Below, piece after piece: positions 1-18,407 of a stretch of DNA of 64,000 nt. The DNA is from Aureimonas sp. AU22 (lineage in GTDB: Bacteria; Pseudomonadota; Alphaproteobacteria; Rhizobiales; Rhizobiaceae): the NCBI RefSeq assembly GCF_001463745.1, contig NZ_BBWJ01000044.1, forward strand, positions 124,001-188,000, in the 5' to 3' direction. The notes beneath the pieces are model-generated. The model was not told the DNA's origin and did not search any database. It saw nothing but the letters and a program-made list of their open reading frames with translations. The first letter of the stretch is position 1. Every line of letters begins with the position of its first letter. Both the position numbers and the translations under genes were made by a program.

Positions 1-2467
1 CGACCGCGCGTCCCACTTCGCAGTGGCTCCGCGGCAGATACGCGAGCGCGATGTTCTTGCCGATCGTCGGGCCGTAGGCCACCGAGGTCGTGTAGGAGCG
101 CCGGCCGAGTTCGTCGACGAGCGTCTCGCCCGTCTCGGGGCAGAGAACTGGCATGGTCCCCACGGGGTAGCGGGCGATGCCCTTCGAATCCGTGTTGTCG
201 GTCATGATCAACGTACAGAGCATCGCGGGCTGGTGATCGCGCGCCTTGTACTCGAGGTGCTTGGCCCTGCCCCGGAAGTCGGCGTCCTTGACCTTCGGGC
301 GCGCTAGGTCGGCCTCCATGAGATTGTACTCGGTCAGCAGGTCGGCGTTCTGAAGACGCAGGCTCTTTTCCATGCGGCGTGTGTTGGCGTAGGTCTCGAC
401 GCCCACCGCGATGACGCCGGTGGAGCGCAGCGCGTCCCAGACGGCCAGCCCGTCCTCGTAGGCCATGTGCAGCTCCCATCCCTGCTCGCCAACATAGGAA
501 ATGCGGAAGGCGGTGACCGACCTGCCGGCGATGGTGAGCGGCTTGATCGCAGCGAAGGGGAAGTTCTCGGGAGATAGCACGGACGCATCGTCCAGAAGGC
601 TGCCGAGGTTCTCTCGCGCGTTCGGCCCCCAGATGCCGATCGTGATGTACTTTTCCGATACGTCCGTGATCGTGACGTCCAAACCGCGGTCCTGCGCCGT
701 GCGGCGCATGTACTGAAAGTCGCGCGGACCGGCATCGGCGCCGTTGATCATGCGGATGCGGTCGGCCATGCGGATCACCGTGAAGTCGGCGCGCACCATG
801 CCCTCGTCATCGAGGAAGTGGGTGTAGATGCCCTTCCCGATATTGGCGTCGCCCCCGATCTTGGCCGCGCAAAGCCATTCCATCAGCTCGACGTGGTCCG
901 GTCCCTCGATGTCGATGATGGAGAAGTGCGACAGGTTGATGATGCCGCAGTTCTCGCTCATCTCGAGATGCTCGGCGTTGGACACGCGCCAGAAATGGCG
1001 GTTGTCCCACTCGTTCTCGCGTACGGGAATGCGGTTGCCGTATTTCTCCAGGAGGTGTTCGTTGGCCGCGTAGCCGTGCGCGCGTTCCCAGCCGCCGAGC
1101 TCCATGAAGTAGCCGCCGAGTTCCTTCTCCCGTTCGTGGAACGGCGAGCGGCGGATGCCGCGCCCGCCGGCGAAGGGCTCGCGCGGGTGGACCGGCGGGT
1201 TGTAGATCTTCCGCGCCGTCTCGGTGCAGCGTTCCTCGATGAACTTCTCGTCCAGCTGAAAGCCGCTGAAGCGTGCGTAGTCGATCCGGTTGTGATCGAT
1301 CGGAGTGCGGCCGTCGGTCATCCAGTCGGCGATGAGCTTGCCCATGCCCGGGCCGTCCTTCACCCAGATGCCGACGCAGTACCAGAGACCGCGTACCTTC
1401 TGGCTTTCGCCCATCGAAGGGCCGCCGTCGGTGGTGGTCTGCAGGAGGCCGTTGAAGGAATGGCCTTCGTTGTAGCCGATTTCGCCGAGGATCGGCGTCA
1501 GCTCGATCGCCCGCTCGAGAGGCTCGATCACCTGCTCCATGTCGAGGTCGCGCTGCGAGGGCGACAGGCGCGCCTCGTGCTTCTCGAGAAGCTCGCGCGG
1601 ATGGACGAGGCGCACGTTGTGCTCCTCGTAGTAGCCCCACTCGATCTGGCCACCTTCGGCGGTCTTCGGATCGCCGGTATCGCGGAGGTAGGCCGAATTG
1701 CCCTGGTCGCGCAGCAGCGGGTAGCCGATCTCCTTGCCGGTGCCGGCGAACTCGTTGTAGGGGCCGAAGAAGGTGAGCGGATGATCCACCGGCATGACCG
1801 GCAGGTCCTCGCCGGCCATTTCTGCGATGAGGCGACCCCATAGCCCGGCGCAGACCACCACATGGTCGGCCATGATCGTGCCGCGGTTGGTGACCACGCC
1901 CTGGATGCGACCGTTCTCGATGACGAGCGACTTGGCGGACGTGTTGGCGAAGGCCTGCAGCTTCCCGGCGTTCACCGCCTGGTCGACGAGCTTGCCGGCG
2001 ACCGTCTGGGAGCGTGGGATGACGAGCCCGGCATCGGGATCCCAGAGACCACCCTGAACGAGGCTTTCCTCGATCAGCGGCATCCGTTCCTTGATCTCGG
2101 TGGGTTCGATCAGCCGGGCGCGGGTGCCGAAGGCCTTGGCCGAGGCGACCTTGCGCCGGATCTCGTCCATGCGCTCGTCGTCGCCGACGCGGGCGACCTC
2201 GAGGCCGCCGACGCGCGCGTAGTGGCCCATCTTGTCGAAGAAATCGATCGAGTAGAGCGTCGTCCAGCAGCTCAGGAAGTCATGGCTCGTCGCATAGCAG
2301 AAGTCGGAGGCGTGGGCGGTGGAACCGATGTCCGTCGGGATGCCCGACTTGTCGATGCCGACGATGTCGCTCCAACCCCGCTCGACGAGATGATGGGCGA
2401 TCGAGGCACCCACGATCCCGCCGAGACCGATGATGACGACCCGCGCCTTCTCGGGAAATGCTGCCAT
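1..2467 (-). CDS. Dimethylglycine/sarcosine dehydrogenase-like FAD-GcvT protein (3' end outside window)
   Basis: About 822 codons lie in the window; the C-terminus runs off the left edge. The N-terminus has a dinucleotide-binding GLGGIVG motif (about residues 14-20) and a GSTAH stretch with His at about residue 52, where the FAD-attaching histidine sits in dimethylglycine and sarcosine dehydrogenases. The second half matches the GcvT-type folate-binding domain. The family oxidatively demethylates N-methyl glycines in the cytoplasm and passes the methyl group to tetrahydrofolate. It lies 55 bp downstream of purU on the same strand and beside soxBDAG and gbcAB, so dimethylglycine to sarcosine is the missing step it would supply. 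Sarcosine as substrate cannot be excluded. The start ATG at 2467 begins the FAD domain directly. Confidence 0.88.
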   Translation of the reverse strand, partial: MAAFPEKARVVIIGLGGIVGASIAHHLVERGWSDIVGIDKSGIPTDIGSTAHASDFCYATSHDFLSCWTTLYSIDFFDKMGHYARVGGLEVARVGDDERMDEIRRKVASAKAFGTRARLIEPTEIKERMPLIEESLVQGGLWDPDAGLVIPRSQTVAGKLVDQAVNAGKLQAFANTSAKSLVIENGRIQGVVTNRGTIMADHVVVCAGLWGRLIAEMAGEDLPVMPVDHPLTFFGPYNEFAGTGKEIGYPLLRDQGNSAYLRDTGDPKTAEGGQIEWGYYEEHNVRLVHPRELLEKHEARLSPSQRDLDMEQVIEPLERAIELTPILGEIGYNEGHSFNGLLQTTTDGGPSMGESQKVRGLWYCVGIWVKDGPGMGKLIADWMTDGRTPIDHNRIDYARFSGFQLDEKFIEERCTETARKIYNPPVHPREPFAGGRGIRRSPFHEREKELGGYFMELGGWERAHGYAANEHLLEKYGNRIPVRENEWDNRHFWRVSNAEHLEMSENCGIINLSHFSIIDIEGPDHVELMEWLCAAKIGGDANIGKGIYTHFLDDEGMVRADFTVIRMADRIRMINGADAGPRDFQYMRRTAQDRGLDVTITDVSEKYITIGIWGPNARENLGSLLDDASVLSPENFPFAAIKPLTIAGRSVTAFRISYVGEQGWELHMAYEDGLAVWDALRSTGVIAVGVETYANTRRMEKSLRLQNADLLTEYNLMEADLARPKVKDADFRGRAKHLEYKARDHQPAMLCTLIMTDNTDSKGIARYPVGTMPVLCPETGETLVDELGRRSYTTSVAYGPTIGKNIALAYLPRSHCEVGRAV

Positions 2468-2522: not shown

Positions 2523-3380
2523 TCAGGGCGTGAAGACGACCGTGCGGTGATGGTTGAGCATGACGCGACCTTCGAGGTGATACTTCACCGCGCGCGCCAG
2601 AACGCGGGACTCGATGTCGCGCCCGGCGGCCACGAAGTCGTCGCCCGTCATGGCGTGGCTCACGCGCTCGGTCTCCTGCTCGATGATCGGACCCTCGTCG
2701 AGATCGGCCGTAACGTAATGGGCGGTCGCACCGATGAGCTTTACGCCGCGCTCGTGCGCCTGGTGGTAAGGCTTCGCGCCCTTGAAGCTCGGCAGGAAGG
2801 AATGGTGGATGTTGATGATCATCCCGAACAGGCGGTTCGACAGGTCGTTCGACAGGACCTGCATGTAGCGGGCGAGGATCACGAGCTCCGAGCCGGTTTC
2901 CTTCACGAGCTCGATCAGCTGCTCCTCACGCTCCGCCTTGTTCTCCTTGTTCACCGGCCAGTGGTGATACGGGATCCCCTCCTGTTCGGCGGTTCTGCGG
3001 GAGTCCTCGTGGTTGGAGACGATGGCTGCGACCTCGGCGTTCAGCCATCCGACCTTGATCTGGTAGAGAAGGTGCAGGAGCGCGTGGTCGAACTTCGAGA
3101 CCATGATGATGATCCTGGGGCGGCGCGACAGGTCCTCGACCTTCAGCCGCATGTCGAAGCGATCGACCGCAGGTTTGAGCGCGAGATCCAGCACCGGCTG
3201 GCCGGTCGCCTCCGGGGCAGCAACGGCGATGCGGACGAAGAGCTGGTTCGTCTTCCGGTCGCAGAACTGGTTGGCTTCCAGGATGTTGGCGCCCCGTGAC
3301 GCCAGCGCCGTGGCGAGCGCTGCGGTGATGCCCGGTTGGTCGAGGCAGCTGAGCTTGAGGATGAACTTGTTCTCGGCCAT
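2523..3380 (-). CDS. purU: Formyltetrahydrofolate deformylase
   Basis: A 285-residue protein with an N-terminal ACT domain (about 1-80) and a C-terminal formyltransferase-like domain that hydrolyses 10-formyl-THF to formate and THF. Formyltransferase hallmarks are visible: the [10 protein letters not shown] stretch and [13 protein letters not shown] with its catalytic Asp. I take ATG 3380 (MAENKF). An in-frame ATG at 3422 would add 14 residues but falls inside the operator box TGTCGCAA, so it is unlikely to be the start. It is the first gene of a unit with the dimethylglycine dehydrogenase. Here PurU probably recycles folate loaded with methyl carbons from betaine demethylation, like the purU copy in pseudomonad betaine clusters (inference). 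Confidence 0.93.
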
Positions 3381-3413
3381 CGCGCGTCTCGATTCAGGGG
3401 GCAAGTCGAAGCA

Positions 3414-3453
3414 TTGCGACACCGCCTGCCCTGCGCACAGGACGTTTGCGTCA
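3414..3453 (-). promoter_or_regulatory. Two-box operator upstream of purU (GbdR/ArgR-type half-sites)
   Basis: Read on the minus strand, the site is TGACGCAA at 3453-3446, then 24 bp, then TGTCGCAA at 3421-3414. The box starts are 32 bp apart, about three helical turns. The second box ends exactly 33 bp before the purU ATG (3380). The same two 8-mers, in the same order, spacing and distance to the start codon, precede soxB (4673-4712). Seven further bases after the first box (GTCCTGT) are also shared. TGTCGC is the core of the consensus I recall for the pseudomonad AraC-type ArgR, a relative of GbdR. The likely ligand is the regulator encoded at 3508. The site also lies upstream of that gene, so autoregulation is possible. 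Confidence 0.75.
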
Positions 3454-3507
3454 ATTTCGGATTAGCAGTACGACAGCGGAAAGAGAGGTTCACGCCCGGG
3501 AATTGCG

Positions 3508-4578
3508 ATGGACGTCAGAAGCGAGAGCCGCGCGAGCGCGACGTCGTCGGGTGCCTACCGGCCGCGACGGAACGGCGTACGGCTATCGGTCGGCTTCATC
3601 CTCGACAAGCGGTTCACCCTCTGCGCCTTCGCGAACTTCGTCGACGTCCTGCGTCTGGCGGCCGACGAGGGCGACCGCAGTCGCCCGATCATGTGCAACT
3701 GGAACGTCCTCTCGGACACGATGAGCGCAATCCCGTCGAGCAGCGGCGTTTCGGTTCAGCCGAACGAGCGGCTCGGAGACCCAGCGAAGTTCGACTACAT
3801 CGTCGTCGTCGGCGGCGTGATGGACGATCTGACGGGTCTCGGGGCGAACTATACAGCCTATCTCCGAAAGGCCGCCGCTGCCGGCATTCCACTGATCGGC
3901 CTCTGCACCGGCGGCTTCCTGCTGCACAAGGCGGGGTTGATGAAGGGCTACCGCTGCTGCGTCAGCTGGTTCCACCATGCCGACTTCCTGGAACAGTTCG
4001 ACGGGCTCGACCCGGTGTCCGATCAGATCTTCATCGACGACGGCGACAGGCTTACGTGTTCCGGGGGCGCGAGTTCCGCCCATCTCGCCGCCTATCTCGT
4101 CGAGCGCCACGTGGGGCGGGCACAGGCGAGCAAGAGCCTGCACATCATGATCATCGACGACGCCATGCGGCCCGAGAAGCCGCAGCCGGGCGTCTCGATG
4201 GATATCTCGACACGCGATCCGATGGTGATGCGGGCGCTTCTCCTCATGCAGCAGAACATCGACGCGCCCTTGTCGGTGGGCGAATTGGCCAAGCGTATGG
4301 GGCACAGCAAGCGGCAGCTGGAGCGCCACTTCCGGTCGGCTCTCGGCGCTTCGCCGCAGGCCGCCTTCCTGCAGATCCGCCTCACCTTCGCGCGGCACCT
4401 GATCGAGACGACGGACAAGCTGGTGGCTGCGGTCGCCGTGGAATGCGGCTTCTGCGACTCCTCGCATCTCAGCCGCATGTTCCGTCAGCGCTTCGACAGC
4501 ACGCCGCAGGAAGTCCGCCGTCAGGCGCTCCTGGCGGCCGCGGCCGCAAGCACGGTGCCCGAGTTCGACGCCGCCTGA
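3508..4578 (+). CDS. GlxA/GbdR-type AraC-family transcriptional activator
   Basis: 356 residues. An N-terminal DJ-1/PfpI-like (GATase1) sensor domain spans about 25-200, with Cys133 in GLCTGGF at the nucleophile-elbow position. A C-terminal AraC helix-turn-helix domain spans about 235-335 ([20 protein letters not shown], then the second HTH ending in RMFRQRF). This layout is that of GbdR, CdhR and ArgR in pseudomonads; GbdR activates betaine catabolism in response to betaine or dimethylglycine. It sits between purU (divergent) and soxB, each with a matching operator, so a GbdR role is the best inference. The sequence alone does not show the ligand. About 20 poorly conserved residues precede the sensor domain, so the start could be later. 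Confidence 0.85.
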
Positions 4579-4672
4579 GACCGCCGTCGGTCGGTCGCCG
4601 CAGAGCGTGCTGGGTCGACCTTCGCATCGCACAAGCCTCCGCCGCGAGCGTGCTCTTAAAGTGCGATCCGAT

Positions 4673-4712
4673 TGACGCAAATGTCCTGTCCCCTGCGGCG
4701 CCCTTGTCGCAA
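4673..4712 (+). promoter_or_regulatory. Two-box operator upstream of soxB (GbdR/ArgR-type half-sites)
   Basis: TGACGCAA at 4673-4680 and TGTCGCAA at 4705-4712, starts 32 bp apart, ending 33 bp before the soxB ATG. It reproduces the purU operator (3414-3453, opposite strand) in box sequence, order, spacing, distance to ATG and the extra GTCCTGT after the first box. The 33-bp gap allows only a very short 5' UTR. An activator bound here would touch RNA polymerase at the -35 region; no convincing sigma-70 -10 hexamer is visible, which suits an activator-dependent promoter. Confidence 0.75.
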
Positions 4713-4745
4713 TGGTACCTCCGCAATGGTCGTTTGAGGTTTGCA

Positions 4746-5999
4746 ATGACCCGTTTCTCCTTTCCGTCCCTGCTGGCGAACGCGCTGACGGGCCACAAGA
4801 AATGGGAGCCGCAGTGGCCGGACGCCGAGCCGAAGGCGGAATACGATGTGATCATCGTCGGCGCCGGCGGACATGGGCTCGGGGCCGCCTACTACCTCGC
4901 CAAGGAGCACGGCATCACCAACGTCGCGGTGATCGAAAAGGGCTGGCTCGGCGGCGGTAACACGGGCCGCAACACCACCATCATCCGCTCGAACTACCTC
5001 TACGACGAAAGCGCGATGCTCTACGAGCATTCGATGAAGCTCTGGGAGAACCTGACCCAGGAGCTGAACTACAACGTCATGTTCTCGCAGCGCGGCGTGA
5101 TGATGCTCGCGCACAACGTCCATGACGTTCAGAGCTTCAAGCGCCACGTTCACTCGAACCGCCTCAACGGCATCGACAACGAGTGGCTGACGAAGGAAGA
5201 AGCCAAGGAATTCTGTCCGCCGCTCGATATCTCGCCGAACGCCCGCTACCCCGTCATGGGCGCGGCCCTCCAGCGTCGCGGCGGTGTCGCGCGTCATGAT
5301 GCCGTCGCCTGGGGCTATGCCCGCGGCGCGGCGGCGATGGGCGTCGACATCATCCAGAACTGCCCGGTCACCTCCATCCGCCGCGACGCCGCCGGCAACG
5401 TGACGGGGGTCGAAACGGCGCGCGGCTTCATCAAGGCCAAGAAGGTCGGCGTCTCGGCCGCCGGCAACACGTCGGTCGTGATGGAGTCCGCGGGCGTCCG
5501 CCTGCCGCTCGAAAGCTATCCGTTGCAGGCGCTGGTGTCGGAGCCGGTGAAGCCGATCTTCCCCTGCGTCGTCATGTCGAACACGGTGCACGCCTACATC
5601 TCGCAGTCCGACAAGGGCGAGCTGGTGATCGGCTCGGGCACCGACCAGTACGTGTCCTACAGCCAGCGCGGCGGACTGCCGCTGATCGAGCACACGGTGG
5701 CGGCGATCTGCGAGATCTTCCCGATCTTCACGCGCATGCGGATGCTGCGCAAATGGGGTGGCATCGTCGACGTCACCCCGGATCGCTCGCCGATCATCGG
5801 CAAGACGCCGGTTCCGGGCCTCTACGTCAACTGCGGCTGGGGTACCGGCGGCTTCAAGGCGACGCCGGGCTCCGCCAATGTCTTCGCGCACACGATCGCG
5901 GGGGACGAGCCCCACAAGATCAACGCACCCTTCACGCTGGAACGGTTCAAGACCGGCCGGCTCATCGACGAGGCGGCCGCCGCCGCCGTTGCGCATTAA
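4746..5999 (+). CDS. soxB: Sarcosine oxidase subunit beta
   Basis: 417 residues. An FAD-binding GAGGHG motif stands at about 39-44, followed by a DAO-type fold. The stretch RRGGVARHD resembles the site of covalent FMN attachment (His) in heterotetrameric sarcosine oxidases. The enzyme oxidises sarcosine to glycine, giving H2O2 and 5,10-methylene-THF with the alpha subunit. GAGG 7 bases before ATG 4746 is a good ribosome-binding site. The frame stays open far upstream into the regulator gene, but that extension is a GC-rich artefact on another gene's reading frame. It leads the soxBDAG operon, 11 bp before soxD. Confidence 0.95.
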
Positions 6000-6010
6000 G
6001 GGGACGGCCC

Positions 6011-6313
6011 ATGCTTCTCATCCGCTGCCCCTACTGCCAATGCGAGCGCCCCGAGGTCGAATTCAACTATGGCGGTCAGGCGCATATCGAACGCCCCGGC
6101 GACCCCTCGACGCTGTCGGACGACGACTGGCGTGACCATCTCTACATCCGCACCAACCCGCGCGGAGCGCATTACGAGCGCTGGCGGCACACGCATGGCT
6201 GCGGCCGCTTCTTCAACGCCATCCGCGACACCGTCACCGACAAGTTCGTGACGACCTACGAGGCCGGCAAGCCGCGGCCCGTACAGGCTGACTCCGAGGA
6301 CGTTCGGTCATGA
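6011..6313 (+). CDS. soxD: Sarcosine oxidase subunit delta
   Basis: 100 residues, the usual size for the zinc-binding small subunit of heterotetrameric sarcosine oxidase. Cys6 and Cys9 (CPYC) with His60 and Cys64 (HTHGC) match the zinc ligands known from the corynebacterial enzyme. It follows soxB by 11 bp and its TGA overlaps the soxA ATG (ATGA, 4 bp), which suggests translational coupling. Confidence 0.95.
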   Translation: MLLIRCPYCQCERPEVEFNYGGQAHIERPGDPSTLSDDDWRDHLYIRTNPRGAHYERWRHTHGCGRFFNAIRDTVTDKFVTTYEAGKPRPVQADSEDVRS

Positions 6314-9303
6314 GCGATTTCCGCATTGCCAACCGGGGCCGAGTGAATCACGGCAAGCGCGTCGCCTTCTCGTTCAACGGCGCGACCTATCAGGGCTTCG
6401 AGGGCGACACGGTCGCCTCGGCTCTGCTCGCCAACGGCGTCCATCTCGTCGGCCGTTCGTTCAAATATCACCGGCCGCGCGGCATCCTGTCGGCCGGTTC
6501 CGAAGAGCCCAACGCGCTGCTCGGCATCGACCACGGCCCGGCCCGCGTGGAGCCCAACACACGCGCGACCGTGATCGAGATCTCGGAAGGGCTGAAGACC
6601 ACGAGCCAGAACCACTGGCCGTCGCTGAAGCGCGACGTCGGCGCGATCAACGACGCGCTCTACATGCTGTTCTCGGCCGGGTTCTACTACAAGACGTTCA
6701 TGTGGCCGAAGTCCTTCTGGAACAAGGTCTACGAGCCGATCATCCGGGGCGCGGCAGGTCTCGGCAAGTCGCCGACCCTGCCGGATCCCGACGTGTATTC
6801 GAGCCGCTTCGCCCATTGCGACGTCCTCGTCGTCGGCTCAGGCCCCGCCGGTCTGGCGGCCGCGCTGGAAGCGGGACGTTCGGGGGCCAAGGTGATGCTG
6901 GTGGACGAGCAGGCCGAGCTCGGCGGCTCGCTTCTGTCGGAGACGGACGCCGGCATCGGCGGCGGAACGGGCTGGGCGTGGCTCAAGGCGAGCGTCGACG
7001 AACTCGCCGCGATGCCGAATGTGCAGCTCCTGCCGCGCACCACGGCGATCGGCTACTACCATCAGAACCTCGTTGCGCTCTGCCAGCGCCTGACCGACCA
7101 CCGGTCGTCGGCGCCCGAGGGTGCGCCGCGCGAGCGCATGTGGAAGGTGCGCGCCAAGCAGGTCGTGCTGGCGCAGGGGTCGATCGAGCGGCCGCTCGTG
7201 TTCGACGGCAACGATCGTCCCGGCGTGATGCTGGCCGGCGCCGCGCGCACCTACCTCAATCGCTACGGAGCGAAGGTCGGCAACAACGTCGTGGTGGTCA
7301 CCGGCCACGACAGCGCATGGCTCGCCGCCTTCGATCTCGCCCGGGCCGGGGTGAAGGTCGAGGCGATCGCGGATCTGCGGTCGGACGTCGATCCCTCGCT
7401 CGTCTCCGAAGCCGGGTCGCTCGGCATCGAGGTCTTGGCCGGCTGGACGGTCACCGGCACCAAGGGGCGGCTGCGCGTCTCGTCGGTCCGCGTCCTGCCC
7501 GTCGGCGGCGATGGCTCGCGAGCCCGCACGATCGCCTGCGACGCGCTCCTGATGAGCGGCGGCTGGACGCCGAGCCTCCACCTCTTCTCGCACACGCAGG
7601 GCAAGCTCGACTGGCGCCATGGCGAACAGATGTTCGTGCCGGCCACCTACAAGGAAGCCTGCCGCTGCGTCGGCGCCGGGAATGGCGACTTCGGTCTTTC
7701 CAAGGCGTTGGCGGAGGGCGCCGAGGCAGGCGCGGCGGCCGCCAAGGACGCCGGCTTCGATGCGGCGCCGACGACCTACGCCGTCGATGGCGAGCGCCAC
7801 CTGACCGGCGTCACCAGCCGCGAGCTGCCGACGGACCAGAACGCCGGCAAGGCCAAGGCCTTCGTCGACTTCCAGAACGACGTCACGGCCAAGGACATCC
7901 GGCTGGCCGTGCGCGAGGGCTTCAAGTCCATCGAGCACATCAAGCGCTACACCACCAACGGCATGGCGACGGATCAGGGCAAGCTCTCCAACATCAACGG
8001 CCTCGCCATCGCGGCGGATGCCGTGCAGCGCCCTGCCCCGGCCGTCGGTCTGACGACGTTCCGCCCGCCCTACACACCGACCACGTTCGGCGCCTTCTGC
8101 GGCTACAGCCGTGGCCGGCTGTTCGACGTCACACGAAAGACCGCGATCGACGGCTGGGCCGAGGAGCACGGCGCCGTCTTCGAGCCCGTCTCGCTCTGGC
8201 GCCGCGCCTGGTACTTCCCGAAGGCGGGCGAGGACATGCACGCGGCGGTCGCGCGCGAATGCAAGGCGACGCGGGAGTCCGTCGGCATCTTCGATGCATC
8301 GACGCTCGGCAAGATCGAGATCGTCGGCCCCGACGCCGCCGAGTTCCTCAACCGGATGTACACCAACCCGTGGAGCAAGCTGCAGCCGGGCCGTACGCGC
8401 TACGGCGTCCTCCTTGGTGAGGACGGCTTCATTCGCGACGACGGCGTCATCGGGCGCCTGTCGAGCGACCGGTTTCACGTGACCACGACGACGGGCGGCG
8501 CCGCCCGCGTGCTCAACCTGATGGAGGACTACCTCCAGACCGAGTTTCCCGATCTCAAGGTCTGGCTGACCTCCACCACCGAGCAGTGGTCGGTGATCGC
8601 GCTGAACGGGCCCAACGCGCGCAATCTTCTGGAGCCGCTGATCGAGGGCATCGACCTTTCGGAAGAGGCGTTTCCACACATGTCGATCGCGGAAGGCAAG
8701 ATCTGCGGCGTGCCGACCCGCCTCTTCCGCATGAGCTTCACGGGCGAGCGGGGCTACGAGGTGAACGTGCCCTCGCGCTACGGTCGGGCCATCTGGGAGA
8801 AGCTGATCGAGGCGGGCAAGCCCTTCGGCATCACGCCCTACGGCACCGAGACGATGCACGTCCTGCGTGCCGAGAAGGGCTACATCATCGTCGGACAGGA
8901 CACCGACGGCACCTTGACCCCCGACGACGCCGGTCTCGGCTGGGCCATCGGCAAGCAGAAGCCGGACTTCGTGGGCAAGCGCTCGCTGACGCGCCCGGAC
9001 ATGCTGAAGGCCGACCGGAAGCAGCTCGTCGGTCTCCTCACCGAGGACCCGAAGACGATCCTGGAAGAAGGCGCACAGATCGTGCTCGACCCCGACCAGC
9101 CCATCCCGATGAAGATGGTCGGCCACGTCACCTCCTCCTACTGGAGCGTGGCGCTCAACCGGTCGATCGCGCTCGCCGTCGTCGAGGGTGGCAAGGGTCG
9201 GATGGGAGAAACCGTCCACGTTCCGATGCCCGGCGAGACGCTGCGCGCGACGGTGACCGGAACGGTCTTCTTCGATCCCGAAAACAAGCGCTTGAGCGCC
9301 TGA
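6310..9303 (+). CDS. soxA: Sarcosine oxidase subunit alpha
   Basis: 997 residues, normal for the family. Order of domains: N-terminal ferredoxin-like segment (about 20-100), an NAD-binding FAD/NAD module with GSGPAG at 176-181, and a C-terminal GcvT-like folate-binding half (about 620-990) including the glycine-cleavage T C-terminal barrel. NAD is structural in characterised enzymes. The folate site captures the formaldehyde released from sarcosine as 5,10-methylene-THF. It is coupled to soxD by a 4-bp overlap and followed 13 bp later by soxG. Confidence 0.96.
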   Translation: MSDFRIANRGRVNHGKRVAFSFNGATYQGFEGDTVASALLANGVHLVGRSFKYHRPRGILSAGSEEPNALLGIDHGPARVEPNTRATVIEISEGLKTTSQNHWPSLKRDVGAINDALYMLFSAGFYYKTFMWPKSFWNKVYEPIIRGAAGLGKSPTLPDPDVYSSRFAHCDVLVVGSGPAGLAAALEAGRSGAKVMLVDEQAELGGSLLSETDAGIGGGTGWAWLKASVDELAAMPNVQLLPRTTAIGYYHQNLVALCQRLTDHRSSAPEGAPRERMWKVRAKQVVLAQGSIERPLVFDGNDRPGVMLAGAARTYLNRYGAKVGNNVVVVTGHDSAWLAAFDLARAGVKVEAIADLRSDVDPSLVSEAGSLGIEVLAGWTVTGTKGRLRVSSVRVLPVGGDGSRARTIACDALLMSGGWTPSLHLFSHTQGKLDWRHGEQMFVPATYKEACRCVGAGNGDFGLSKALAEGAEAGAAAAKDAGFDAAPTTYAVDGERHLTGVTSRELPTDQNAGKAKAFVDFQNDVTAKDIRLAVREGFKSIEHIKRYTTNGMATDQGKLSNINGLAIAADAVQRPAPAVGLTTFRPPYTPTTFGAFCGYSRGRLFDVTRKTAIDGWAEEHGAVFEPVSLWRRAWYFPKAGEDMHAAVARECKATRESVGIFDASTLGKIEIVGPDAAEFLNRMYTNPWSKLQPGRTRYGVLLGEDGFIRDDGVIGRLSSDRFHVTTTTGGAARVLNLMEDYLQTEFPDLKVWLTSTTEQWSVIALNGPNARNLLEPLIEGIDLSEEAFPHMSIAEGKICGVPTRLFRMSFTGERGYEVNVPSRYGRAIWEKLIEAGKPFGITPYGTETMHVLRAEKGYIIVGQDTDGTLTPDDAGLGWAIGKQKPDFVGKRSLTRPDMLKADRKQLVGLLTEDPKTILEEGAQIVLDPDQPIPMKMVGHVTSSYWSVALNRSIALAVVEGGKGRMGETVHVPMPGETLRATVTGTVFFDPENKRLSA

Positions 9304-9316
9304 GGAGAACTCGTCG

Positions 9317-9877
9317 ATGTTTCAGGAACGGCATCCCCTCATCGGCCGCAAGCTGGCGTCCGCCAACCCCGCTCCCGTCTCGATCCACTCGATCGACAAC
9401 TCGGCGCGATTCAGCCTCCGCATCGCTCCTGCGGACCTCGCCGCCGCCTCCGGTGTCTGGGGCGCGCCGCTGCCCCCCACGATCGGGGAGTTCACGGCGT
9501 CGGCCGGACGCATCGCCGCCTGCATCGGGCCGGACGAATGGTATCTCATCGCACCATTGGGCGACCAGGATGCGATCGAGGCGTCCTTCGCGGACTTATA
9601 CAAGACCACCGTCCACAGCCTCGTGGACGTCGGGCACCGCGAAGTCGGCATCGCTGTCGAAGGACCCGAGGCCGCGAACGCCCTGCAGTCGTGCATCGCA
9701 GCCGACATCAATTCCATGCCGGTGGGCTCCGCGCGCCGTACCATCATCGACCGGGTTCAGATCATCCTGATCCGCGAGGCTGACGACCGCTTCCGCATCG
9801 AGGTCTGGCACTCGTTCGCCGATCATGTCTGGCATCTTCTCGCCGGGATCTGCCGCGAGTTCGAACTGGGACTCTAG
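9317..9877 (+). CDS. soxG: Sarcosine oxidase subunit gamma
   Basis: 186 residues, the fourth gene of soxBDAG. It resembles the GcvT N-terminal fold but lacks its own cofactor motif, as usual for the gamma subunit. The start ATG 9317 has GAGGAGAA about 9 bp upstream, immediately after the soxA stop. It is needed for assembly of the heterotetramer. No other domains are seen. Confidence 0.92.
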   Translation: MFQERHPLIGRKLASANPAPVSIHSIDNSARFSLRIAPADLAAASGVWGAPLPPTIGEFTASAGRIAACIGPDEWYLIAPLGDQDAIEASFADLYKTTVHSLVDVGHREVGIAVEGPEAANALQSCIAADINSMPVGSARRTIIDRVQIILIREADDRFRIEVWHSFADHVWHLLAGICREFELGL

Positions 9878-10214: not shown

Positions 10215-11600
10215 GTGTTCCTGAGCGTTTTCGACGTCTTCAAGATCGGCATCGGACCGTCGTCCTCGCACACGATGGGGCCGATGACGGCGGCCGTGCG
10301 TTTCCTCGATCTTCTCCGCCAGTCCCCTGCCATTGGGAACGCGGTCGGCGTGCGCGTGACGCTCCATGGTTCGCTCGCCTTCACGGGACGGGGTCATGCC
10401 ACCGATCGTGCCGTTTCTCTCGGACTTCTCGGCTGGCTCCCCGCCGATATCGACATGGACGAAGCCGAGCAGCAGCTGCGGAGTTTGAGCGAGGGCCGTT
10501 CGCTTCGGCTCGAAGGCCTGCCACCCCTCGCCTTCGATCCGGCAGCCGATATCGTCTTCGATTTCGGTCCGCCACTTGCCGGGCACGCCAACGGCCTCGT
10601 CTTCGCTATCCGCGATGCGGATGGACGGGAAATCCTCTCGGAAACCTACTTCTCCATCGGCGGCGGCTTCGTGGTGACGGCGGCCGAGCGAGAACGGCCG
10701 GAACTTGTCCACGCTAATCCGAAGGTGCACTGGCCCTTCCCGTTCAGGAACGCAGCCGACATGCTTCGCATGGCCAACGCGAGCGGCCTGTCGATCGCGC
10801 AGATGAAGCGCGCGAACGAGGCGCAAATGCGCAGCCACGAGGAGGTCGAGGCGGGCGTGAACCATATCTGGTCGGTGATGACACGATGCATCGACCGGGG
10901 CGTCGCTCAGGGCGGCGAGTTGCCCGGCGGGCTTCGCGTCAAGCGGCGCGCGCGACGCATCCACGAGCAGCTGCAGGCCGAGCGTCAGCGCAACTTCAGC
11001 CAGCCCCACGCCGCCTCGGACTGGCTCAGCGTCTATGCGATGGCCGTCAACGAGGAGAACGCGGCCGGCGGACAGGTGGTCACCGCACCGACCAACGGTG
11101 CAGCCGGCGTCGTGCCCGCCGTCCTGCGCTACTACCTCGACAACTGCCACGGAGCCGACCCGGCGAAGGTCTCGGATTTTCTGTTGACCGCCGCCGCGAT
11201 CGGCGGTCTCATCAAGCACAATGCCTCGATCTCGGGAGCCGAGGCTGGCTGCCAGGGCGAGGTCGGCTCGGCGGCCGCGATGGCCGCCGCGGGTCTGTGC
11301 GCGGTCCTCGGCGGAACGCCGGAACAGGTCGAGAATGCCGCCGAGATCGCGCTGGAGCATCATCTCGGCATGACCTGCGACCCGGTAGCGGGATTAGTGC
11401 AGGTACCGTGCATCGAACGCAACGGGATTGGCGCCACGAAGGCCGTCGCAGCTGCGTCTCTCGCGTTGCGCGGCGACGGTTCTCACTTCATGCCGCTCGA
11501 CAACTGTATCGAGGCGATGCGCCAGACGGGCGAGGAGATGAACCTGAAATTCAAGGAAACCAGTCTGGGAGGACTGGCTGTCAATCTGCCGGAGTGCTGA
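10215..11600 (+). CDS. sdaA: L-serine ammonia-lyase (iron-sulfur type)
   Basis: 461 residues starting at GTG 10215; the [21 protein letters not shown]-terminus is the canonical start of this family. Cysteines in GCQGE (about 345), MTCDP (about 387) and VPCIERN (about 398) are the 4Fe-4S ligands. It dehydrates L-serine to pyruvate and ammonia. In this island it would complete betaine to pyruvate after glycine is turned to serine by GlyA, which is not in the window. fdhA follows 34 bp downstream. Confidence 0.95.
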
Positions 11601-11634
11601 GCGCCAGGCGGATGAAAACCGGGAGGAAATCGAA

Positions 11635-12819
11635 ATGAGCAGCAACCGTGGCGTGGTCTATCTGGAGCCCGGCAAGGTCGAGGTCCGCAATATCGACGAC
11701 GCCAAGCTCGCGGCGCCCGATGGCCGCCGCATCGAACACGGCGTCATCCTGAAGGTCATCTCGACCAATATCTGCGGCTCCGACCAGCACATGGTGCGCG
11801 GCCGCACGACGGCCGAGCCGGGCCTCGTGCTCGGGCACGAGATCACCGGCCAGGTGATCGAGAAGGGCGTCGACGTCGAGATGCTCGAGATCGGCGACAT
11901 CGTCTCGGTTCCCTTCAACGTCGCCTGCGGTCGGTGTCGTTGCTGCAAGTCGCAGGACACGGGCGTCTGCCTCACGGTCAATCCGTCTCGCGCCGGCGGC
12001 GCCTACGGCTATGTCGACATGGGCGGCTGGATCGGCGGGCAGGCTCGCTACGTCACGGTCCCCTACGCCGACTTCAACCTCCTGAAGTTCCCGGATCGCG
12101 ACCGCGCCATGAGCAAGATCCGCGACCTGACCATGCTGTCTGACATCCTGCCCACCGGCTTCCACGGCGCGGTGAAGGCCGGCGTCGGTGTCGGCTCCAC
12201 CGTCTATGTCGCGGGCGCCGGTCCCGTCGGCATGGCCGCAGCCGCCTCCGCTCGCATTCTCGGTGCCGCGGTGGTGATGATCGGCGACTTCAACAAGGAC
12301 CGTCTGGCGCACGCTGCGAAGATGGGCTTCGAGCCGATCGATCTTTCCAAGCACGACGACCTAGGCGAGATGATCGCCGAGGTGACAGGGACGAACGAGG
12401 TCGACAGCGCCATCGACGCCGTGGGCTTCGAAGCGCGCGGCCACTCCGGCGGCGAGCAGCCGGCGATCGTCCTGAACCAGATGATGCAGATCACCCGCGC
12501 GGCCGGTTCGATCGGCATCCCCGGCCTCTACGTGACGGAGGACCCCGGCGCGGTGGACAGCGCCGCAAAGCAGGGAAGCCTGTCGCTGCGATTCGGCCTC
12601 GGCTGGGCGAAGGCACAGTCCTTCCATACGGGCCAGACACCGGTCCTGAAGTACAATCGGCAACTCATGCAGGCCATCCTGCACGACCGCCTGCCGATTG
12701 CGGACATCGTGAATGCCCGGATCATCCCGCTCGACCAAGCGGCTCAAGGCTACGAGACGTTCGACCAAGGAGCGGCGGTTAAGTTCGTTCTGGATCCACA
12801 CGGCGAACTGGCGGCCTGA
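11635..12819 (+). CDS. fdhA: Glutathione-independent formaldehyde dehydrogenase
   Basis: 394-residue zinc-dependent medium-chain dehydrogenase. Catalytic zinc ligands include Cys47 and the His68-Glu69 pair. The structural zinc lobe has Cys98, 101, 104 and 112. NAD binding is shown by AGAGPVGMAAA. Length and the long insert after the catalytic domain (GEQPAIVLNQMMQ region) match the Pseudomonas putida-type dismutating formaldehyde dehydrogenase, where NAD stays tightly bound. It removes formaldehyde set free by GbcAB and the demethylases. AGGAGG-like GGGAGGAAA precedes ATG 11635. It is the last gene of the sox-sda-fdh run. Confidence 0.94.
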   Translation: MSSNRGVVYLEPGKVEVRNIDDAKLAAPDGRRIEHGVILKVISTNICGSDQHMVRGRTTAEPGLVLGHEITGQVIEKGVDVEMLEIGDIVSVPFNVACGRCRCCKSQDTGVCLTVNPSRAGGAYGYVDMGGWIGGQARYVTVPYADFNLLKFPDRDRAMSKIRDLTMLSDILPTGFHGAVKAGVGVGSTVYVAGAGPVGMAAAASARILGAAVVMIGDFNKDRLAHAAKMGFEPIDLSKHDDLGEMIAEVTGTNEVDSAIDAVGFEARGHSGGEQPAIVLNQMMQITRAAGSIGIPGLYVTEDPGAVDSAAKQGSLSLRFGLGWAKAQSFHTGQTPVLKYNRQLMQAILHDRLPIADIVNARIIPLDQAAQGYETFDQGAAVKFVLDPHGELAA

Positions 12820-13575
12820 GGCGCGGCGCGGGAGCGCCTGGACGGTACAGGCTCGCCTGTGGCCGAAAGGCTCAGCACAAGGTTCGGGGGATGCGTTCCT
12901 CCGAACCGGGGAGTGCCATGCCGCTGACCGGTTCGTCCGTTTCGCTTCCAAGAGCCGCCTGCGCCTGAGACGACAGGTGTTGGGCTGGCGGACACAGGGA
13001 CGTTGGCGAGTTTCATCCTTCGGGCTGGGTGGTCAACGTCCCGAGGGAATCTGCCTCTGATCGGTTCTTATGAGTTGCTTACGGTTTGATCACAAGCAGA
13101 TGGGTGATCACGTCTTGGCCGAAGGCGTCGCCAAACGACAAGCCTTCTGTCGCAAATCTCCTATTTGGCGGACTTCACACCGCTAAGCTTTCCAGTGCTG
13201 CGCATGCCTGTAACGCTGCGCACGAAACTTGACGTCGCGACCGAGAGTTTCGGTTTTCGCGAAGCGCCGGAGGTATTCTTCAAGCATAAGAGTCGATGGT
13301 AGATGAAACCATCTGCCACTTCCCGTTCGTTTCATACAACGATCGATAGCATGCAGTGGAACAGCACAGAAAAATGCTTGCATCGAGAGATCTATAGGGG
13401 CTCAATCGGGTGCGGAAACCGAACGGCCCACACGAATACCGGACACCGTCCGGCGAACTGAACGACTGACAAGCAGAGCGCGACCACGATCGTGCGCGAC
13501 TAGGACCACAGCTTACAGAAGTGGATATTTCGGCCGAAGGCGCCGCCGGATCGTCCATGTTTCAGCGCCGCGGAG
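12820..13575 (+). promoter_or_regulatory. 756-bp intergenic region: hairpins after fdhA, operator-like site and long leader before the betaine transporter
   Basis: No gene is supported here. The first 90 bp contain three successive hairpins: AGGCGC/GCGCCT (12819-12839), ACAGG/CCTGT (12847-12860) and a 10-bp stem with one mismatch (12881-12890 with 12898-12907). None is followed by a T-run. A 9-bp inverted repeat, GGGACGTTG/CAACGTCCC, spans 12997-13042. Base composition falls after about 13050, as expected of a promoter region. A two-box site at 13116-13155 resembles the purU and soxB operators. If transcription starts just after it, the transporter mRNA has a leader of nearly 400 nt, including a GATGGT/ACCATC hairpin at 13295-13313. 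Confidence 0.55.
13116..13155 (+). promoter_or_regulatory. Third, degenerate two-box operator upstream of the betaine transporter
   Basis: TGTCGCAA at 13148-13155 is identical to the proximal box of the purU and soxB operators. Exactly 32 bp upstream, at 13116-13123, stands TGGCCGAA, which keeps the TG-C--AA frame of the distal box TGACGCAA. Orientation points to the transporter genes. Unlike the other two sites it lies 420 bp from the next start codon. Confidence 0.5.
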
Positions 13576-14592
13576 ATGCAGATGATCCATCGTTTCGTGA
13601 AATCGACGTGCCTGGCGATCGCCATGACCTCCGTCGCATCCATCGCGGCCTACGCCGCGGACGACTGCAGCGACGTGACGATCGCGGCGATGAATTGGCA
13701 GAGCGCGGAAGTGCTCGCCAGCCTCGACAAGTTCATCCTCGAGAACGGCTACGGCTGCACGGTCTCGGTGATTTCCGGCGATACCGTGCCCACCCTGACA
13801 TCGATGGCGGAACGCGGCCAGCCGGACATCGCACCCGAGGGCTGGGTGGACCTCGTGCCGGAAGTCATCAACCGTGGCCTGTCCGAGAAGAAGCTGGTGG
13901 CGCCGGGCGTCGCCCTGTCGGACGGCGCGCAGCAGGGCTGGTGGATTCCGAAATACGTCGCCGATGCCCACCCCGACATCAAGACGATTGCCGACGCCCT
14001 TAAGCATCCCGAGCTCTTCCCCAATCCGGAAGACTCCAGCAAGGGCGCCGTGTTCAATGGTCCGCAGGGCTGGGGCGGCACGGTCGTCACCACGCAGTTC
14101 TTCAAGGCATACGACGCCGCCAACAAGAACTTCGACCTCATCGATACCGGTTCGGCCGCAGGTCTCGACGGATCGATCGCCCGTGCCTACGAGAACAAAC
14201 AAGGCTGGCTCGGCTATTACTGGGCTCCAACGGCGATCCTCGGCCGCTATCCGATGGTGAAGCTCAACATCGATGCCCCGCACGACGCGGACGAATGGAA
14301 GCGCTGCAATTCGAACGCCGATTGCCCTGATCCCAAGATCAACGACTGGATCGCCGACAAGGTCGAGACGGTTGTCACCACCAAGTTCTCCGAGCGCGCC
14401 GGTGAACCGGTGATGACCTATCTCGGCAATCGGTCCTGGTCCAACGCGACCGTCAATGAACTTCTGTCCTGGATGACCGACAACCAGGCCAACGGCGACG
14501 ACGGCGCCAAGCACTTCCTGGAGAACAAGAAGGACGTCTGGAGCAAGTGGGTCTCGCCGGAAGCGGCGGAGAAGATCGAAGCGGCCCTCTAG
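13576..14592 (+). CDS. Glycine betaine ABC transporter substrate-binding protein
   Basis: 338 residues with a signal peptide ending near AAYAADD (about residue 28), then an OpuAC/ProX-type betaine-binding domain. Tryptophans expected of the aromatic box are present (MNWQSAE, EGWVDLV, GWWIPKY, YYWAPTA). It captures betaine or related quaternary amines in the periplasm and delivers them to the permease encoded 117 bp downstream. Association with catabolic genes suggests uptake for food rather than only osmoprotection, like the pseudomonad CbcXWV system (inference). A second ATG at 13582 is an equally possible start. Confidence 0.9.
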   Translation: MQMIHRFVKSTCLAIAMTSVASIAAYAADDCSDVTIAAMNWQSAEVLASLDKFILENGYGCTVSVISGDTVPTLTSMAERGQPDIAPEGWVDLVPEVINRGLSEKKLVAPGVALSDGAQQGWWIPKYVADAHPDIKTIADALKHPELFPNPEDSSKGAVFNGPQGWGGTVVTTQFFKAYDAANKNFDLIDTGSAAGLDGSIARAYENKQGWLGYYWAPTAILGRYPMVKLNIDAPHDADEWKRCNSNADCPDPKINDWIADKVETVVTTKFSERAGEPVMTYLGNRSWSNATVNELLSWMTDNQANGDDGAKHFLENKKDVWSKWVSPEAAEKIEAAL

Positions 14593-14708
14593 GCTTCCAT
14601 CGAAGTCCCTGGTCTCTCGCGCATCCGTCGGTTCCGTCGTACCGTCGGCGACCAAGGGAAGCGCGAGAGCCACGGGGCGCCGACGAGATCAATCGACAGG
14701 GGGACGCG

Positions 14709-15596
14709 ATGGATTGGCTGTGGACGTTTCCACACATGGACGACAGCCGTCTGCGGCTGCTTCGCACGACAATCGACGACGCGTTCCGCTCTTTCACGCG
14801 GGCCTGGGGAGACCCGATCCAGACGCTGTTCGAACCACTTCGGCAACTGCTGATCTGGTCTGAATGGGTGATGATGAGCACGCCCTGGCCCGTCATCGTC
14901 CTTGCGATCGCCGCCCTCGCGTGGGCGGCGAGCCGCCGTTGGCCCATCGTCATCGGCTCGATCGTCACGTTGCTGCTGATCGGCTATTTCGACATGTGGG
15001 AAGACACGATGCGGACGATCTCCATGATCTTCGTCTGCACGCTCATCTCGCTCGTACTCGGCATCCCGATCGGCATCGCGATGGCGCGCTCAAACCGCGT
15101 CCGCCGCGTGATCAGCCCGATCCTCGACGTGATGCAGACACTGCCGAGCTTCGTCTATCTCATCCCCGTGGTGATGCTGATGGGCATCGGCCGCGTCCCC
15201 GGCCTCATCGCCGTCGTCATCTACGCCATTCCGCCGATCATCCGATTGACCGATCTCGGTATCCGACTGGTCAACAAAGAGGTGCTGGAGGCTTCCGACG
15301 CATTCGGGTCGTCGTCCTGGCAGAAGCTCGTGAACGTTCAGCTGCCGCTGGCGATGCCGACGATCATGACGGGCATCAACCAGACCATCATGATGGCCCT
15401 CGCCATGGTCGTCATCGCCTCGATGATCGGTGTTCAGGGCCTGGGTCAGCCTGTGCTGCGCGCCATCAACAATCAGTACTTCACGATGGGCATCTTCAAC
15501 GGCTTGGCGATCGTGGGCATCGCGATCATCTTCGATCGCATCAGCCAGGCGTTCGGGCAGCGGCTGCAGCGGCACAAGGAGCACGGGCATGCTTGA
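14709..15596 (+). CDS. Glycine betaine ABC transporter permease
   Basis: 295 residues with an N-terminal extension of about 50 residues and six or so membrane segments in a BPD_transp_1 domain (about 90-285). The EAA-loop motif is recognisable around LEASDAFGSSSWQKLVNVQLPLAMP, where the permease contacts the ATPase. It is the ProW/OpuAB-type inner-membrane channel. I start at ATG 14709 with AGGGGG 9 bp upstream; an upstream in-frame start overlaps the previous coding region. Its stop overlaps the ATPase start by 8 bp. Confidence 0.92.
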   Translation: MDWLWTFPHMDDSRLRLLRTTIDDAFRSFTRAWGDPIQTLFEPLRQLLIWSEWVMMSTPWPVIVLAIAALAWAASRRWPIVIGSIVTLLLIGYFDMWEDTMRTISMIFVCTLISLVLGIPIGIAMARSNRVRRVISPILDVMQTLPSFVYLIPVVMLMGIGRVPGLIAVVIYAIPPIIRLTDLGIRLVNKEVLEASDAFGSSSWQKLVNVQLPLAMPTIMTGINQTIMMALAMVVIASMIGVQGLGQPVLRAINNQYFTMGIFNGLAIVGIAIIFDRISQAFGQRLQRHKEHGHA

Positions 15597-16671
15597 TGTG
15601 ACGACGCCGCTCCAGCGTCCCTCTGCCGCCATCGGCCAGTCGACACCCCTGGGACATGGGATCGAGATCCGTAAGCTTTCGAAGGTCTTCGGCCGAAACC
15701 CGGAAAAGATCGTGCCGCTCCTCGGCAAGGGCATCGGCAAGCAGGAGATCATGGAGGTGCACAAGCACGTCCTCGGTCTCAACGACATCAACATCTCGAT
15801 GCCGGCCGGCTGTATCCAGGTCATCATGGGCCTGTCGGGTTCGGGCAAGTCGACCCTGATCCGCCACATCAACCGCCTCATCGACCCGAGCGTCGGCGAG
15901 GTGCTGGTGGAAGGAGTCGACGTCTGCAAGATGACGCCGAAGGAACTGCGCGAGTTCCGCCGCCACAAGACCGCAATGGTGTTCCAGCAGTTCGGGCTGC
16001 TCCCCCATCGCACCGTGCTGGACAACGCGGTCTACGGCTTGCAGCTGCAGGGCGTTCCTCGCGGTCGGCAGGTCGATACGGCGATGCATTGGCTCGGACG
16101 CGTCGGCCTGACAGGCTTCGAGAACCATTACCCGCACCAGCTGTCCGGCGGCATGCAGCAGCGCGTCGGCCTGGCGCGGGCGCTCGTCAACGACGCGCCG
16201 ATCCTCCTGATGGACGAGGCGTTCTCCGCACTCGATCCGCTGATCCGCGTCGACATGCAGTCGATCCTCCTCGACCTCCAGAAGGAGATCAAGAAGACCA
16301 TCGTCTTCATCACCCACGATCTCGACGAGGCGCTGCGGCTTGGCGATCGAATCGCGATCCTGCGCGACGGCGAAGTTGTCCAGCAGGGCACGGGGCAGGA
16401 AATCGTCCTGTCACCCGCGGACGACTACATCATGGAGTTCGTGCGACACGTGAACCGCGGCAAGGTCATCCAGCTCGCCGCGGTGATGGACGGCGAGCCC
16501 GTTCCAAACGGGGCTGACGGGATCGAGCTGCCAGCGAACACCCTCCTCGAAACGGCGGTCTCCGCCCTCCTCGCCTCCGGCAAGAACCTGATCCTCGTCA
16601 CCGATGGTCGCGGCACGACGCTGGGTTGCCTCACCCTGCCGAAGGTCGTCTCGGCCATGGTCACGCCCTGA
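15589..16671 (+). CDS. Glycine betaine ABC transporter ATP-binding protein
   Basis: 360 residues of the ProV/OpuAA type. Walker A is GLSGSGKST, the signature is LSGGMQQRVGLARAL, Walker B is ILLMDEAFSALD and the H-loop is FITHDLDEA. After the ATPase core a short C-terminal segment (about 270-360) resembles one CBS-type regulatory unit, which in OpuA senses ionic strength; a second CBS unit is not obvious. It overlaps the permease gene by 8 bp (ATG 15589), so the two subunits are probably translationally coupled. Confidence 0.93.
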   Translation: MLDVTTPLQRPSAAIGQSTPLGHGIEIRKLSKVFGRNPEKIVPLLGKGIGKQEIMEVHKHVLGLNDINISMPAGCIQVIMGLSGSGKSTLIRHINRLIDPSVGEVLVEGVDVCKMTPKELREFRRHKTAMVFQQFGLLPHRTVLDNAVYGLQLQGVPRGRQVDTAMHWLGRVGLTGFENHYPHQLSGGMQQRVGLARALVNDAPILLMDEAFSALDPLIRVDMQSILLDLQKEIKKTIVFITHDLDEALRLGDRIAILRDGEVVQQGTGQEIVLSPADDYIMEFVRHVNRGKVIQLAAVMDGEPVPNGADGIELPANTLLETAVSALLASGKNLILVTDGRGTTLGCLTLPKVVSAMVTP

Positions 16672-18344: not shown

Positions 18345-18356
18345 GACGACACCTGT

Positions 18357-18407
18357 TTGCGACAATGTCGTGAAATCTAAAATAGCTGTCGTACGCCTTC
18401 AAGACAG
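18357..18407 (+). promoter_or_regulatory. AraC-type operator cluster in the gbcA / regulator divergent promoter
   Basis: Two tandem 21-bp units, 18366-18386 and 18387-18407, each read TGTCGT, 8 bases, AA, 5 bases. This fits the spacing TGTCGC-N8-AA-N5 that I recall for the pseudomonad AraC-type ArgR, with T for C at position six. Just upstream, 18357-18364 is TTGCGACA, the reverse complement of the TGTCGCAA box seen before purU and soxB. It forms a near-palindrome with the first TGTCGT. The cluster ends 72 bp before gbcA and lies at the start of the divergent regulator gene, so it could serve both. Confidence 0.6.

Follow-up and report, generated by a model that had tools for sequence, protein, structure and literature searches.

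Conserved pairs of putative half-sites before purU and soxB in Aureimonas sp. AU22 and the candidate regulon of a DJ-1/PfpI and AraC-type regulator

Gene Content of the Locus

The window analyzed here is a stretch of 64,000 bp from Aureimonas sp. AU22 (contig NZ_BBWJ01000044.1). Near its left end, a gene for a regulator with a DJ-1/PfpI-like domain and an AraC-type helix-turn-helix (3508..4578, plus strand; assigned from Pfam, NCBIfam, and a tree) lies between two oppositely oriented gene groups. On the minus strand are purU, which encodes formyltetrahydrofolate deformylase (2523..3380; TIGR00655, 325 bits over cut-off), and downstream of it a gene for a DMGDH-like FAD/GCV_T protein (2..2467; Pfam) that runs off the window. 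On the plus strand are soxB of the sarcosine oxidase beta family (4746..5999; TIGR01373, 725.6 bits), soxD (6011-6313; named by position only), soxA (6310-9303; TIGR01372, over cut-off), and soxG (9317-9877; TIGR01375, 124 bits, below its cut-off). These are followed on the same strand by sda for L-serine ammonia-lyase and fdhA for glutathione-independent formaldehyde dehydrogenase (10215..12819), and by genes for the binding protein, permease, and ATPase of a betaine/choline-type ABC transporter (13576..16671), most of which score below their curated cut-offs while proV is over its own. A paralog of the regulator (17382-18365) is divergent from a gbcA-like gene.

Two-Box Sites Before purU and soxB

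A sequence-only reading of this window had described identical two-box sites before purU and soxB, and these are present just as it described them. On the purU side, TGACGCAA and TGTCGCAA occupy 3453-3446 and 3421-3414 (minus strand); on the soxB side, the same two boxes are at 4673-4680 and 4705-4712 (plus strand). Both pairs have a start-to-start spacing of 32 bp, share the motif GTCCTGT, and are located 33 bp from the ATG (3380, minus strand, for purU; 4746, plus strand, for soxB). The single motif TGWCGCAA occurs seven times in the window, four of the copies being the boxes of these two pairs; 3.92 copies are expected (SD 1.98), and at least seven were found in 12 of 100 shuffles. The exact two-box pattern has two copies in the 4.63-Mb genome of this strain, both of them at purU/soxB, and the reversed pattern has none. 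Among 249 genomes of the order, the exact pattern was found in two, namely, this genome and G216; it is too strict for an order-wide search because soxB regions of relatives use a spacing of 31 bp. A pattern extended by GTCCTGT and allowing three mismatches was also tried in the genome of this strain and set aside, as it gave 94/92 matches compared with 82/95 for the reversed control, with no clear excess; the individual places listed are the first ones among these matches. TTGACG was also considered as a sigma-70 -35 element and set aside, since no -10 element was seen by eye 17 bp downstream of it.

The identical distances hold in this genome and are peculiar to it. In seven Aureimonas genomes with the regulator, the regulator-side pair has a spacing of 32 bp in six and 31 bp in G018, and the soxB pair has 32 bp in the window and 31 bp in five relatives, one of which has a degenerate second box. 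The distance from the second box (hereafter box 2) to the purU ATG is 107, 107, 90, and 125 bases in L074, L075, L076, and L078, respectively. A functional role for the equal 33 bp to both start codons was rejected, since this distance is not conserved.

Conservation and Spacing of the Half-Sites

Among orthologs of the regulator, taken as the best 80 of 340 matches and including Aureimonas, Devosia, Rhodobacter relatives, Thalassospira, sphingomonads, and others, the common regulator-side motif recognized by eye is TGTCGTAG and TGACGCAAAYRTYCTRT separated by 22 bp (H1-H2). The first box of the earlier reading corresponds to the second half-site here (H2, TGACGCAAAYRTYCTRT), with GTCCTGT forming the 3' portion of that half-site. 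In the window, H2 is TGACGCAAACGTCCTGT (3437..3453, minus strand), supported by conservation and the profile described below. H1 is TGTCGTACTGCTAATCC (3459..3475, minus strand), which is conserved in the orthologs and corresponds to the profile peak at -22; its core TGTCGTAC (3475-3468, minus strand), 22 bp before the first box, had been missed. Box 2 is a candidate third half-site (TGTCGCAATGCTTCG; 3407..3421, minus strand) that overlaps the predicted purU -10 element AATGCT (3415-3410). The soxB operator region has a degenerate H1 (TGCTCTTAAAGTGCGAT; 4651..4667, plus strand), an H2 (TGACGCAAATGTCCTGT; 4673..4689, plus strand), and a box 2 (TGTCGCAATGGTACC; 4705..4719, plus strand) that is likewise a candidate third half-site and overlaps the predicted soxB -10 element AATGGT (4711-4716).

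When scored with a matrix trained on the same regulator-side sites that it scores, an H1-H2 site beside the regulator reaches at least 19.9 in 77 of these best 80 orthologs, the exceptions being L098, L101, and L127 (the last partly N-masked). We further scanned with an H2 matrix on both sides. For the regulator side, 75 of 81 regions (80 loci plus the window) were kept, giving 47 after joining those more than 60% identical. For the soxB side, 23 regions including the window gave 18 by the same joining, and regions with a partial soxB, a soxB less than 65% identical, or no match to the box were left out. The highest off-centre peak on the regulator side is at -22 (z 4.6), with only one of 47 H1 sites scoring above 6; offset -19 has z 3.5 but no region above 6. 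On the soxB side, -22 is again the peak (z 5.8; seven of 18 above 6), and +31 is second (z 3.0; four of 18). A TGTCGTT-type box occupies the soxB H1 position in L080, L081, L082, and L086, at 22 bp or, in L081, 21 bp.

The sequence-only reading had taken the 32-bp pair for the working operator, a three-turn direct repeat with a geometry of its own. Box 2 does fit the half-site matrix better than H1 at regulator-side sites; at +32 (z 3.5), 11 of 47 regions score above 6, compared with two at +31 and no more than two at any further non-zero offset in the top ten. The Aureimonas soxB promoters, moreover, combine a degenerate H1 (-19.3 in the window and -20.8 in L074) with a strong H2 and box 2. 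Against this, box 2 is missing from 27 of the 47 non-redundant regions beside the regulator and from 13 of the 18 before soxB, its spacing drifts between 31 and 32 bp, and it sits on a predicted -10 element, where a bound activator would block polymerase. In addition, two sites have the two-turn pair only: the ABC transporter site described below and soxB of G007, which lacks box 2 and carries a TGGCGCAA-21-TGGCGCAA pair at -91/-70. We consider a three-turn operator unlikely, as the most widely conserved partner of the first box is at 22 bp. Judged from sequence, these putative operators generally consist of the two-turn H1-H2 pair, to which some lineages add a genuine further box at +31/32.

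The third box differs in placing among these lineages. At +31/32 it is found in Aureimonas, Devosia, Bosea, and sphingomonads, with matrix scores of 10.2-10.9 in the window, L074, L076, and L077, only 2.9 in L079, 12.0 in two Devosia, and 8.0 in a Bosea relative. Four sphingomonads, which form a separate clade, have it at exactly +32 with scores of 13.7-16.6, and the 32-bp pair noticed earlier is therefore no accident. A few regions have an extra box at +21 instead, most clearly Celeribacter (L121, 11.0) and Aquimixticola (L143, 9.7), and more weakly others.

Association of the Sites With the Regulator Gene

Within Aureimonas, a regulator ortholog (E-value 1e-110 or better) is present in seven of 21 genomes and a soxB-like gene in all 21. 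The boxes precede soxB in all seven regulator-bearing genomes, and their H2 copy begins at positions -70 to -73 relative to the start codon. The 14 genomes without the regulator have no box pair, and at most one TG(A/T/G)CG(C/T)(A/G)A, in the 200 bp before soxB. These are not 21 independent events because the soxB cluster and the regulator seem to travel together. In G007, soxB is on another contig and 87% identical, and it still has the TGGCGCAA pair; on the regulator side of the same genome, both boxes are kept although the upstream gene encodes an ETF domain rather than PurU.

Beyond this genome, the regulator-side site is also kept where an ETF gene or a DMGDH-like gene replaces purU. Among the relatives whose divergent neighbor was checked by domain, which are the only ones given a gene class here as some ORFs looked wrong-frame, the gene is ETF in L077, L096, and L111, DMGDH-like in L079 and L083, and purU in L108, all fitting methylglycine/C1 metabolism. 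The proposal of a shared operator and of a regulon controlled by the adjacent regulator gains support from the co-occurrence in the genus and from the site in 77 of the best 80 of 340 orthologs. We regard it as probable that the purU and soxB sites, together with the rest of the model set out below, are operators in the regulon of the regulator at 3508-4578.

The regulators of Devosia (L080-L082) are 81-86% identical to that of the window and their soxB is 94% identical, which suggests transfer of the cluster between families. A further member of the same regulator clade is encoded in L084, L085, L087, and L104. In all of these but L085 it lies near the first regulator, and the soxB sites of L084, L087, and L104 may belong to it.

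Identity of the Regulator

The 3508 regulator has PF01965, PF12833, and PF00165 over their cut-offs, in the order DJ-1/PfpI and then AraC-type helix-turn-helix, an architecture that we take to be of the GlxA type. It had earlier been called GbdR-like. With the GbdR equivalog model NF052371, it scores 187 bits, compared with a cut-off of 480 bits. The paralog at 17382-18365, which also combines DJ-1/PfpI with an AraC-type domain, scores approximately 347 bits, also below 480, and is the closest relative of GbdR in the window. In a tree of 70 proteins (of 97 rows, after removal of long, near-identical, and certain other ones), a branch with 100/100 support splits 36 and 34 rows, with side labels from an earlier quick tree. 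The 3508 regulator and its relatives are on the opposite side of this branch from the paralog and from the GbdR proteins over the cut-off; many rows on the GbdR side were chosen by the GbdR model from 398 genomes drawn from the phylum, and the rows are without named SouR, CdhR, and ArgR proteins. By these sequence comparisons, the 3508 regulator is not the GbdR counterpart, and the earlier label does not hold.

The sites could instead be owned by the paralog. Its protein has the same two kinds of domain, and the combined H1+H2 matrix picks a site in the gap between it and gbcA (see below). However, a relative of the paralog (43-45% identical) is present in five of six neighborhoods of Aureimonas without the 3508 regulator, where the soxB promoters lack these boxes, and across families the sites track the 5' region of the 3508 regulator. 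Ownership by the paralog is thus very unlikely in our assessment. The matrix match in the gbcA gap makes this alternative slightly stronger, and assignment to the 3508 regulator slightly weaker, than they would otherwise be.

Additional Sites in the Window

A scan of the window with the H1 and H2 matrices ranked the purU/regulator gap highest (42.2), followed by soxB (26.1), a site before the betaine/choline-type ABC transporter (19.9), and the gbcA gap (10.2). The ABC transporter site (CGTCGCCA-22-TGTCGCAAATCTCCTAT; 13126..13164, plus strand) is a likely operator that had not been noticed before, and it has no box at +31/32. Its score is above all maxima of 20 Markov controls (6.6 to 19.6), and it is borderline on its own because these maxima reach 19.6. 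Sites before the orthologous binding-protein gene score 21.7, 21.7, and 19.2 in L232, L233, and L235, and none over 12 was found in L234 and L236.

In the gap that separates gbcA from the GbdR-like paralog (18366-18394), TGTCGTGA-21-TGTCGTAC is perhaps the paralog's own operator. With the H1+H2 matrix, this gap scores 10.2 in the window, 15.1 in L232, and 19.1 in L236. The matrix therefore does not separate the sites of the two regulators, either of which may use the ABC transporter site.

Predicted Promoters and the Role of Box 2

For a comparison of -10 columns, 44 of the best 80 of 340 regions were kept, 18 with and 26 without box 2. In the 26 non-redundant regions without box 2, C at column 37 (81%), A at 38 (88%), and T at 42 (62%), counted from H2, form a -10-like CANNNT, and box 2 puts AATGMT at this place. 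A -10 scan of the regulator side ranked +37 first in 27 regions without box 2 and +38 first in 20 regions with it. Before soxB, +37 is first in five regions with box 2; in the 13 without, +51 is first and +37 second. The -10-like columns at +37/38 put the predicted -35 element at approximately +14 from H2, with the box-2-less soxB regions ranking +51 first. In class II activator promoters, the proximal half-site overlaps the -35 element and the -10 element follows approximately 23 bp further on; a predicted -35 on the 3' end of H2 would give such a layout.

On the opposite strand, the complement of H2 and H1 contains TTGCGT (3446-3451, plus strand) and TACGAC (3469-3474, plus strand) separated by 17 bp, plausibly the predicted -35 and -10 elements of the regulator's own promoter. 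A promoter within H1-H2 would explain the near-constant TGTCGTA- H1 at this position, compared with TGGCGC in many soxB sites.

Box 2 may be a -10 region only (GCAANNNT), its likeness to a half-site having arisen by chance and shared descent. GCANNNT is kept at the same place in the 26 regions without TGTCG, and the Devosia and Aureimonas versions of the regulator and of soxB are similar enough to have a recent common origin. On the other hand, conservation extends over TGTC at columns 0-3 but not over the preceding 14 columns, albeit in a group chosen by the same matrix, and the separate sphingomonad clade has box 2 too. We view this reading as a serious possibility that falls somewhat short of probable; it is compatible with H1-H2 as the operator because it concerns box 2 alone.

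Proposed Model of Regulation

From these computed patterns of sequence, conservation, spacing, and co-occurrence with the regulator, we infer a model in which H1-H2 is the operator of a GlxA-type regulator, and we think it likely to be right. The AraC-type protein encoded at 3508 would bind as a dimer to direct half-sites resembling TGWCGYAR-N2-RTYCT, at a spacing of 22 bp or two helical turns. With H2 ending on the -35 region, the bound regulator would act as a class II activator of purU-dmgdh, of soxBDAG(-sda-fdhA), and perhaps of the ABC transporter; the probable trigger would be the presence of dimethylglycine or sarcosine. In the purU/regulator gap, binding at H1-H2 would also cover the predicted promoter of the regulator itself and may thus lead to autorepression. 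Box 2, over the predicted -10 element, would be a third half-site in some lineages and most simply a brake or fine-tuning site.

The three half-sites fit into approximately 70 bp and all face the same side of the helix. A compact switch can be imagined in which the dimer without ligand bridges H2 and box 2 over three turns and blocks the promoter, and with ligand occupies H1-H2 and activates; this elaboration seems to us rather unlikely.

Comparison With Known Systems

SouR (locus PA4184) is the sarcosine-responsive activator of soxBDAG. CdhR of Pseudomonas aeruginosa is described with direct GGTCGC half-sites and a 15-bp spacer, i.e., 21 bp from start to start, and these half-sites are said to be very similar to the GbdR, SouR, and ArgR sites (PMC5806209). 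The sites found here are alike in belonging to an AraC-type regulator of the same broad group with direct half-sites two turns apart; they differ in the 22-bp spacing, in TGWCGYAR with a conserved RTYCT, and in the extra box on the predicted -10 element in some lineages. The ARG box of pseudomonad ArgR is given as a tandem TGTCGCN6GNAA, with 16-bp boxes 5 bp apart (21 bp), and P. alloputida has ARG boxes with variable separations (PMC10963909). ArgR differs in the other, downstream half of its half-site and in its targets, which are arginine genes. The half-sites here are of this ArgR/CdhR type, direct and TGTCGC-like at approximately two turns (22 bp and sometimes 21), and the supposed contrast with pseudomonads gives way to a main spacing of 22 bp, which comes near the 21 bp seen with CdhR and ArgR. 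In its main geometry, the proposed switch is of a known type; what is unusual is the additional box on the predicted -10 element.

GbdR and SouR are mentioned as required in P. aeruginosa (PMC12093977); the 3508 regulator differs from GbdR in its place on the other side of the tree and in a model score well under the GbdR cut-off. Operons of the form glyA-soxBDAG-purU (PMC3691474) and a GlxA-family gene named in methylamine clusters of Rhodobacteraceae (PMC7574528) are also on record. Among the literature matches listed, which leave subscription journals mostly uncovered and make absence weak evidence, none was found that deals with this regulator of Alphaproteobacteria or with its operator.

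These results connect a clade of alphaproteobacterial regulators, separate from GbdR, with a putative regulon for dimethylglycine/sarcosine breakdown, and they provide a half-site motif usable for annotation. They also suggest a reason for two related regulators in one betaine-catabolism cluster, with one by gbcA and one by purU-dmgdh/soxBDAG. If the -10 box is bound, the site would offer a small and readily tractable example of a switch between two-turn and three-turn binding.

Another soxB Promoter Element in Aureimonas

Of the 14 Aureimonas genomes that lack the regulator, 13 (L162-L174, and not L160) were seen by eye to share another soxB promoter element, which resembles TGTCGCnTTnnTACAA...GCCGnTTnCnTCATC and is more divergent in L167 and L168. 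This element recurs only at soxB in five of six neighborhoods; the sixth, L243, is not centred on soxB.
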